This document shows, piece after piece, positions 45,001-47,211 of a stretch of 64,000 nucleotides of DNA (its first letter is position 1; the number at the start of each line of letters is the position of its first letter). The notes below the pieces were generated by a model. That model worked only from the letters and a program-made list of their open reading frames with translations, was not told the origin of the DNA and did not search any database. Both the position numbers and the translations under genes were made by a program. The DNA comes from Nakamurella alba (GTDB taxonomy: Bacteria; Actinomycetota; Actinomycetes; Mycobacteriales; Nakamurellaceae), in the NCBI RefSeq assembly GCF_009707545.1, contig NZ_WLYK01000001.1:992001-1056000 (forward strand). Reading direction: 5' to 3'.

Positions 45001-45070
45001 GCGCCCCGCGCTCCCGAATCCGTTCGTGTGGTGCGCCGAGGTGGGTACCGCACGGCCGGTGCAGTGCCAG

Positions 45071-45109
45071 ATCGGACTCTTTCCCGCGTGAGCGGGAAGG
45101 GGTCCGGGA
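45071..45109 (+). repeat. 39-bp imperfect repeat with internal hairpin, copy 1
   Basis: It begins ATCGGACTCTTTCCCGCGTG and holds the hairpin TTCCCGC-GTGA-GCGGGAA. It resembles 45287-45325 at about 33 of 39 positions. It lies in the 341-bp gap between the convergent psuG and lldD genes. Confidence 0.65.
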
Positions 45110-45197
45110 TCTGTCGTGCAGTTGTCGGAGTCACACTCGGCCGCCGACCCGGCCTGCCGAGCTGTGTCGCGCACCTGGGTACGCCGCCACGCAGAAT

Positions 45198-45232
45198 GGA
45201 CCGAAACCATTGCGTGGCGACGGTTTCGGTCC
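45198..45232. terminator. Hairpin between convergent psuG and lldD
   Basis: GGACCGAAACC (45198-45208) and GGTTTCGGTCC (45222-45232) form a perfect 11-bp stem with a 13-nt loop. Between two convergent genes it is most simply a terminator, though it is 200 nt from psuG and 110 nt from lldD. The T/A-containing stem is unlike the GC-only hairpins elsewhere. Confidence 0.5.
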
Positions 45233-45286
45233 CCGATCCGTGGGGCCGGGTGGGGAATTCGTCTCCCGGACCTCCGGCCCGTAGGA

Positions 45287-45325
45287 ATCGGACTGCTTCC
45301 TGCGTGAGCGGGGAAGGGTTCGGGA
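45287..45325 (+). repeat. 39-bp imperfect repeat with internal hairpin, copy 2
   Basis: Second copy, same orientation, beginning ATCGGACTGCTTCCTGCGTG. It ends 17 bp before the lldD stop codon. With copy 1 it flanks the 45198 hairpin, giving a repeat-hairpin-repeat layout. Confidence 0.65.
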
Positions 45326-45341: not shown

Positions 45342-46604
45342 CTAGCGGGGGAGGTCCTCCGCAGGCGCCTCGAAGCGACCCAGCCGGTGCAGCTGGGTGA
45401 CGTGAGCCGGTGTCAGCTCCGCGACCTCCGACACCTGCAGCAGCTGCATGGTGCGGATGACCTGGTCGGTGAGTATCTGGATGGTCCGGTCGACCCCGGC
45501 GCGGCCACCGGCCATCAGGCCGTACAGGTACGCCCGCCCGATGAGGGTGAACTTCGCGCCCAGCGCGATGCTCGCCACGACGTCGGCGCCGTTCATGATC
45601 CCGGTGTCGACCACCACCTCGACATCGGCCCCGACCTCGCGGACCACCGAGGGCAGCAGGTGGAAGGGGACCGGTGCCCGGTCGAGCTGACGTCCGCCGT
45701 GGTTGGACAGCACGATGCCGTCGACACCGAGATCGGCCAGCCGGCGGGAGTCCTCGACGTTCTGCACGCCCTTGACCACCAGCTTGCCGGGCCAGATCGA
45801 TCGGATCACGTCGAGGTCGTCGAAGGAGATCGTCGGGTCCATCGCCGAGTTGAGCAGCTCGCCGACGGTGCCGCCGGTCGAGGACAGCGACGCGAACTCG
45901 AGCTTCGGAGTGGTCAGGAAGTCCCACCACCACCAGGGCCGCGGGATCGCGTTGACGATGGTGCGCGCGGTCAGCTGCGGCGGGATGGAGAAGCCGTTCC
46001 GCTTGTCCCGCAGCCGGGCGCCGGCCACCGGGGTGTCGACGGTGAAGAACAGGGTGTCGAAACCTGCCTTCGCGGCCCGCTCGACCAGACCGAACGAGAT
46101 CTCCCGCTGGCGCATGACGTACAGCTGGAACCAGTTGCGCCCCAGCGGGTTCGCTGCCTTGACGTCCTCGATGGACGTGGTGCCCAGGGTGGAGAGGGTG
46201 AACGGGATGCCGGCGGCGGCCGCTGCGCCCGCGCCGGCGATCTCGCCCTCGGTGTGCATCAGCCGGGTGAAACCCGTCGGCGCGATGCCGAAGGGCAGCG
46301 CCGACGGGCCGCCGAACACGGTGGTGGAGGTGTCCACCTTGGACACGTCGCGCAGGATCGACGGGTGGAACTCCACGTCCTCGAACGCCTGGCGTGCCCG
46401 GGCCAGTGACAGCTCGCCGTCGGCGGCGCCGTCGGTGTAGTCGAACGCTGCGCGCGGGGTCCGGCGCTTGGCGATCCGCCGCAGGTCCTCGATGGTGAGC
46501 GCCGCTGCCAGCCGGCGCTTCGTGCCGTTGAGCTCGGGCTTCTTGAACGACAGCAGCTCGGCGAAGTCCGACGGCTTGGGCATCTGCCGCTTCACGTTCG
46601 ACAT
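45342..46604 (-). CDS. lldD: L-lactate dehydrogenase (FMN-dependent alpha-hydroxy acid dehydrogenase) LldD
   Basis: 420 residues of the FMN alpha-hydroxy-acid oxidase/dehydrogenase family. Markers are [16 protein letters not shown] near residue 48, [16 protein letters not shown] (about 105), the active-site base in SNHGGRQLD (about 297), and the FMN phosphate loop at [21 protein letters not shown] (in part: [10 protein letters not shown]). It oxidises L-lactate to pyruvate and passes electrons to the respiratory chain; the neighbouring NDH-2 gene fits respiration. ATG 46604 has GGAGA upstream. Two LldR/FadR-like operators lie at 46693-46733. Other 2-hydroxy acids cannot be excluded. Confidence 0.85.
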
Positions 46605-46692
46605 GGGTGACGTCTCCGGTCGTCGGTGCCGCGCGGCAGCTGGGCACGGCGGCGCCGTGCCGACCGCACCGGCCCCGCGCGCACCCGGCCGG

Positions 46693-46709
46693 CTGTGGTC
46701 GGACCACAG
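46693..46709. promoter_or_regulatory. GntR/FadR-type operator 1 upstream of lldD
   Basis: CTGTGGTCGGACCACAG, a perfect 8+1+8 palindrome containing the TGGTCnGACCA core bound by FCD-type GntR regulators such as FadR and LldR. It lies 89 bp before the lldD start and also upstream of the divergent methyltransferase gene. Confidence 0.75.
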
Positions 46710-46718
46710 GGTAGCAGC

Positions 46719-46733
46719 TGTGGTCCGACCACA
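46719..46733. promoter_or_regulatory. GntR/FadR-type operator 2 upstream of lldD
   Basis: TGTGGTCCGACCACA, a perfect palindrome around a central C. It lies 25 bp (centre to centre) from operator 1, so two dimers could bind nearly the same face of the helix. No GntR-family gene is present in the window. Confidence 0.75.
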
Positions 46734-46776
46734 AGAGGGTGGTGCGCGGCGTACCGGGAACCGGCAGGCTGGGCAG

Positions 46777-47211
46777 ATGACGGACACGCGCCGACTGTCG
46801 CCACGGCTGCTGGCGATCGTCGACCAACTCCCGTTGCGCCCGGGGCTCAAGGTGCTGGAGATCGGCGGCGGCACCGGCGCTGCGGCCTGCGCGGTCGCGC
46901 GCCGGGTGGCGCCAGGCGGACGTGTTCTGATGATCGACCGGTCGGAGAAGTCGTTGGCGATCGCCCGGCGGACCGGGGCGGACGTGATCTCGGACGGCCT
47001 GCTCGAGGTGCGAATGGCGGCGGTGGAGGAGTTCGTCCCGGAGCCCGCGGACCGGCCGTTCGAGCTGGCCTTCGCGATCCGGGTCGGCGTGCTCGACGGA
47101 CGGCATCCGCAGGCGGGCACGGCAGCCCTCGACCGACTCCGGGCCGCTGCGGCCCCGGGGGCGCGACTGGCCGTGTGCGGTGACGGACCGCTGCGCTGGC
47201 TCGATCTCTGA
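46777..47211 (+). CDS. Small class I SAM-dependent methyltransferase
   Basis: 144 residues, shorter than most methyltransferases. SAM motif [13 protein letters not shown], is near residue 25; motif II follows in [19 protein letters not shown]-terminal strand pair ends in LAVCGDGPL. It contains the Rossmann core only, without a clear substrate lid. CAGGCT, a -10-like box, ends 6 nt before the ATG. It is divergent from lldD and shares that regulatory region. The substrate is unknown. Confidence 0.75.

Follow-up and report, generated by a model that had tools for sequence, protein, structure and literature searches.

Between an lldD-like gene and a small divergent methyltransferase gene of Nakamurella alba, two palindromes resembling operators of FCD-type GntR proteins are placed side by side, and no such regulator is encoded near them. 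The locus thus raises the questions of which protein would read the pair, which of the flanking genes it would control, and which enzyme is controlled. The window, i.e., the whole stretch of 64,000 nucleotides that was analysed (C1:992001-1056000), was followed up in its own genome, in a genus set of 17 genomes with this one (G000) included, and in wider samples of actinobacteria.

Twin palindromes and an LldR-type regulator

Both palindromes were located as the initial annotation had described them, i.e., between lldD and the methyltransferase gene and 25 bp apart from start to start, which leaves a gap of 10 bp. The two 15-mers are perfect odd-length palindromes, the central base excepted. 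Of the coordinates first given, 46693-46733, the end was right, whereas the start was one base early.

Features of the lldD locus and of the SDR operon (window positions, except in the last line)
Feature	Position	Strand	Remarks
lldD-like gene, FMN-dependent L-lactate dehydrogenase / alpha-hydroxyacid oxidase, 420 aa	45342..46604	-	PF01070; proposed regulated gene
Operator palindrome 1 (lldD-proximal)	46694..46708	.	TGTGGTCGGACCACA, perfect match; core TGGTCnGACCA
Putative lldD -10 hexamer TACCCT	46708..46713	-	between the palindromes, one base into palindrome 1
Operator palindrome 2	46719..46733	.	TGTGGTCCGACCACA, perfect match; 25 bp from palindrome 1
Small SAM-methyltransferase-fold gene, 144 aa	46777..47211	+	PF13649 E=1e-7; divergent neighbour
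Two-SDR operon with twin LldR-type sites	L035:6374-8014 = G000:C1:1242373-1244013

With the window at a G+C of 0.716, a first-order model of its sequence predicts 0.00046 perfect TGTGGTCNGACCACA sites per 64 kb. At window composition, 0.043 are expected per 6.05 Mb versus three in the genome. Looser matches were at background level, i.e., three places versus 4.2 expected in the window at up to three mismatches, and 26 places in the genome at up to two. Because a reversed control pattern was more frequent (46 places), the 20 two-mismatch places were treated as background and rejected as extra targets. Six of the 20 were checked, and five lay inside candidate reading frames (L007, L008, L009, L010, and L040). 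At the two-mismatch place in L039, no frame passing the GC3 filter was found. The one-mismatch place at C2:240990 was also rejected as a target, since a GNAT acetyltransferase frame spans it (L006:987-1586, PF13302 E=5.5e-24).

The absence of FCD-type GntR proteins had been named as evidence against the first reading, and the genome contains 23 FCD matches of GntR type. None of them falls in the window, so the regulator is indeed missing from it. The 23 loci were scanned to about 1.5 kb on either side of the domain, and the proposed search for a GntR gene with the same site nearby gave one gene. This gene, C1:553527-554222, is encoded elsewhere as had been supposed, 484 kb away, and bears the same 15-mer at C1:553431-553445, 81 bp upstream of its ATG. 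At two further FCD loci, L012 and L025, the 11-bp core occurs between different outer bases.

The protein of C1:553527-554222 contains an N-terminal GntR winged helix-turn-helix domain (PF00392, E=4e-19) and a C-terminal FCD domain (PF07729, E=1e-19). Residues D147, H151, H199, and H221, which we take to be the LldR metal-site positions, are invariant in 10 aligned LldR sequences of the 13 in the genus. The best solved relative is 2DI3, which matches over the full length, i.e., residues 1-230, at E=1.9e-47, and the runner-up is a pyruvate dehydrogenase complex repressor (E=2.2e-14). In PMC4494728, 2DI3 is described as LldR of C. glutamicum. The initial assignment of the pair to an FCD-type, LldR-type regulator is in agreement with this match. 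With the E. coli LldR model (NCBIfam PRK10421) the protein scored 79.3 bits, and the cut-off of 311 was not reached. The NanR model gave a higher score, 98 of 260 bits. Because the E. coli cut-off was missed and the NanR model scored higher, membership is claimed for the C. glutamicum type only. Judged from its sequence, the protein is an LldR of that type and not the E. coli equivalog. The lldR gene adjoins a Ppx/GppA gene here. It is unlinked to lldD, and the two are paired on the strength of the site they share and by comparison.

For this comparison, named actinobacteria were scanned by LldR alignment. The best 80 of 420 relatives include Rhodococcus, Mycobacterium, Nocardia, Arthrobacter, Microbacterium, and Cellulosimicrobium. 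Among these best 80 of 420, 68 LldR genes have the site (no more than one mismatch) in the 300 bp before them, and 44 of the 68 have two. Of 1303 background stretches of the same length, 4 contained the site. The other 12 of the 80 had no site within that distance, and they include L193, which ends at a contig edge, and L143, where the site is before lutA. In the fetched flanks of up to 6 kb, LldD was near LldR in 54 of the same best 80 (counted as homologues of >50% identity to the lldD-like gene), LutB in 20, and neither in 6. Twin exact cores were present in 17 of 393 class-sample genomes, this one included, and the reversed control in three. Of 16 twin loci from other genomes (L211-L226), 13 showed LldR with lldD or lut genes, the exceptions being L217, L221, and L226.

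A probable lldD promoter and the divergent methyltransferase gene

The spacing of the twin pairs is narrow, i.e., 21-26 bp in 47 of the 53 distinct pairs collected, and a -10-like hexamer was searched between the palindromes. With three flanking bases on each side, taken symmetrically, all of the 28 twin pairs that precede lldR-lldD operons had a TANNNT oriented towards the operon. Only 24 of these pairs are distinct sequences, and many are from closely related genera and therefore not independent. In 7 of the 28, a TANNNT was oriented away from the operon. Shuffled gaps that retained the flanks gave 3.8 +/- 1.8 towards and 3.7 away. The 28 pairs come from 53 operon-type loci listed. The remainder had no pair at the cut-off, and L193 (cut) and L211 (15-mers that differ more) were excluded.

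The choice of three flanking bases was a post hoc change of one base, prompted by hexamers that often extended to the third base of the adjoining palindrome. With two flanking bases, the 24 operon-type pairs gave 7 towards versus 9 away, i.e., no direction. The hexamer itself was still enriched with two flanks, as TANNNT in either sense occurred in 27 of 47 twin pairs versus 6.1 +/- 2.3 in shuffled gaps. No promoter was found by a sigma-70 consensus scan of 46590-46800. The window hexamer TACCCT has counterparts of the same behavior in TAGGGT of the SDR twin site described below and in TACTGT of the lldD twin site in the congener G002. Because TANNNT between the palindromes points to lldD, the pair is probably placed around the lldD promoter.

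The initial annotation had suggested that the methyltransferase gene may belong to the same regulon. The twin operator would then be a shared divergon element, and the methyltransferase would be regulated by lactate together with lldD. The position of the pair is consistent with this suggestion, since it separates the two start codons, and the distance to the methyltransferase ATG (43 bp from palindrome 2) is shorter than that to the lldD ATG (89 bp from the nearer palindrome). Also, central pairs of constant spacing in FadR-subfamily divergons are thought to govern both sides, according to PMC4494728. The comparative evidence is against it. No homologue of the methyltransferase was found at E<=1e-12 in the 16 congeners. 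In the class sample, matches at E<=1e-15 were found in 19 of 393 genomes, this one included, in a search whose first look scored at most 10 candidates per genome and may have missed homologues. At 19 homologue loci from 18 other genomes, no operator site was found (at most two mismatches, 1.5 kb on each side). Between the window palindromes, moreover, no TANNNT is present in the methyltransferase sense. Joint control of both genes is thus unlikely, and the methyltransferase was rejected as a co-regulated gene. From these sequence comparisons, it is probably outside the LldR regulon and is most likely a chance neighbour of operators that would serve lldD.

The putatively controlled enzyme in the genus

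The LldD-like protein is spanned by an FMN_dh domain (PF01070, E=7e-127, residues 45-403), and its translation contains the stretch SNHGGRQ, presumably the active-site motif of the FMN_dh family. The best NCBIfam match was PRK11197, L-lactate dehydrogenase, with 306 bits (cut-off 376), and the LldD model gave 269 bits (cut-off 550). Because these curated cut-offs were missed, the gene is called lldD-like, on genomic linkage. Two strong hairpins of 15 pairs each are placed between psuG and lldD, at 45060-45110 and 45192-45235 (z -4.3 and -4.0). A T run was not seen by eye, and a degenerate second copy of the first hairpin, near 45303, folds poorly. The hairpins are possibly intergenic repeats or terminators.

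LldR orthologues (E<=1e-37) were found in 13 of the 17 genus genomes. In G012 the LldR match was of 32% only, and in G004, G006, and G014 there was none at E<=1e-20. Perfect sites were found in 12 of the 13 genomes with LldR versus none of the four without. The remaining genome with LldR, G009, has a one-mismatch site before lldD. G004 and G006 have one one-mismatch place each, of another type. Two pairs of genomes serve as natural controls. G012 and G014 encode lldD orthologues at 80-81% identity with neither an LldR orthologue nor a site near lldD, and G004 and G006 encode lutB (79% and 74%) with neither LldR nor a perfect site. Twin exact cores were found in four genomes of the 17 and the control pattern in none, and most other members have a single site.

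The gene behind the site differs among the congeners. In seven of them (G001, G003, G007, G008, G010, G011, and G013), the site is between LldR and lutAB of the iron-sulphur system for lactate oxidation, and proteins with CCG, LUD, and Fer4 domains are encoded at these loci. G015 has a perfect site before lutA and a one-mismatch site before LldR. The window species and G002 have LldR beside the Ppx/GppA gene with no lut genes, and their lldD is elsewhere, behind twin sites. The gene order is Ppx, LldR, GPP34, site, lldD in G016 and Ppx, LldR, GPP34, site, lutA, lutB in G007, so that different enzymes are found behind the site in unchanged surroundings. Of the loci compared, only those of G007 and G016 have a GPP34-domain gene (L090:7059-7784 and L091:6744-7427) separating LldR from the lactate gene.

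The two enzymes were also seldom found together in the genus. The lutB gene was found in 12 of the 17 genomes and was not detected in G000, G002, G012, G014, and G016, which all have lldD of at least 60% identity. Thus, lutB is present in one of six genomes with such an lldD (G009 only) versus 11 of 11 others (Fisher p=0.001, relatedness ignored; G008, with a 54% LldD-like protein and lutB, was counted as having no lldD). No lactate permease (PF02652) was found in the genome of the window species. In contrast to it, G009 encodes four L-lactate permease genes and four copies of lutB besides lldD (L100 and L099).

These comparisons bear on the substrate. The regulator could be LldR-like while its effector and the substrate are another 2-hydroxyacid, e.g., glycolate or mandelate, and the lldD-like gene would then encode a hydroxyacid oxidase. 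The scores of the protein under the curated lactate cut-offs fit such a case, and mandelate dehydrogenase and glycolate oxidase are, like L-lactate oxidase, among the solved structures closest to it. Against it, the same regulator and site are found at lutABC (LUD and CCG domains) in relatives, LldR adjoins an L-lactate permease gene in G009, and lldD is mainly in genomes where lutB was not found. Another 2-hydroxyacid is therefore quite improbable, and L-lactate would be the effector and the substrate.

The paralogue at C5:10646 is also an FCD/GntR protein, is encoded near an LldD paralogue of 50% identity, and has nearby a site, GCTGGTCAGACCAGC, that shares the 11-bp core. It is highly improbable that the palindromes serve this or another FCD regulator, since GCTGGTCAGACCAGC differs in its outer bases (GC..GC versus TG..CA) and the TG..CA version tracks the orthologues of C1:553527 across the genus and the LldR relatives in the named genomes. 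The locus of this paralogue (L105:4995-8523, G000:C5) also includes an Iso_dh-like gene and a divergent aldehyde dehydrogenase gene. It is possibly a paralogous regulon with a shifted operator.

The predicted regulon and known lactate regulators

A second twin site was found in the genome at C1:1243975-1244013. It is composed of CGTGGTCCGACCACA and AGTGGTCCGACCACA, 24 bp apart, with one mismatch in each 15-mer and perfect cores. It is upstream of two adjacent SDR genes, and an LtrA-family gene is on the opposite side. SDR1 orthologues were found in six congeners, with SDR2 adjoining in five. No LldR-type site was found at the SDR1 loci of these six (up to two mismatches, no more than one of them within the core, in flanks of 1.5 kb). 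The twin site was thus seen in the window species only, and the SDR operon was rejected as a conserved target. From its distribution, the SDR twin site looks like a species-specific addition. The unexpected member of the regulon would be the SDR operon, rather than the methyltransferase.

The twin palindromes of the window are read here as the LldR operator for the repressor of C1:553527, with control of lldD, lldR, and the SDR operon that would be relieved by lactate. We put the probability of this reading at about 0.9. One LldR dimer would be bound to each palindrome. Upstream of the lldD -10 element, one palindrome would occupy the spacer, whereas the other would lie over the -10 and start region, so that bound LldR would keep RNA polymerase off. 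Accumulated L-lactate would bind the FCD domain and release LldR. LldD would then be made and would oxidise L-lactate to pyruvate. The same repressor would act on its own gene via one site and, in this species, on the two-gene SDR operon via the second twin operator. Binding, repression, and release by L-lactate are carried over by analogy from C. glutamicum.

LutR of Bacillus subtilis is a GntR protein acting on lutABC. Like the regulator proposed here, it represses L-lactate utilisation genes (PMC11734750), whereas the enzyme controlled here would be LldD, and lutB was not detected in this genome. In C. glutamicum, LldR is the repressor of the lactate operon, and L-lactate inhibits its binding (PMC7999487). 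The likeness to this LldR is one of the regulator protein, over its full length (2DI3, E=1.9e-47). Whereas LldR controls an L-lactate utilisation operon in C. glutamicum, lldR is 484 kb from lldD here, beside the Ppx/GppA gene, and the predicted regulon includes the SDR operon.

The operator also has known counterparts. According to PMC10272880, the E. coli LldR box is AAnTGGTCnGACCAnTT and occurs in pairs at LldR targets. Its core TGGTCnGACCA and its pairing are the same as here, whereas its outer bases are AA..TT instead of TG..CA. For M. smegmatis MSMEG_0596, a FadR-subfamily operator, GTGTGGTCAGACCACAC, was predicted (PMC2018728, Table 3). It contains the same 15-mer, but it is a single predicted site. 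In the texts examined, supplements (e.g., the PMC4494728 site tables) excepted, the search for this operator and for an exchange of enzymes behind it returned the box of E. coli and the prediction for M. smegmatis. The mechanism itself is already known, and the small twist would be in which enzymes are controlled.

A broader reading is offered tentatively, at somewhat less than even confidence. In the genus, the lactate repressor and the operator promoter would be constant, and the enzyme would be exchanged between the unrelated LutABC and LldD. In one species, the element of twin palindromes and -10 hexamer would also have captured the two-SDR operon, which would imply an undescribed lactate-linked step. 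The exchange of enzymes behind a constant operator is modestly interesting.

What appeared as an orphan operator pair would become a complete lactate regulon of three loci, i.e., lldR, lldD, and SDR1-SDR2, which is predicted and testable. The genus may serve as an example of a repressor and operator that outlive the enzyme they control, as the site precedes lutABC in some sister species and lldD in others, and genomes that lack the repressor also lack the site. The order palindrome, TANNNT, palindrome is suggested as a sequence rule by which lactate-controlled promoters may be found in actinobacteria.
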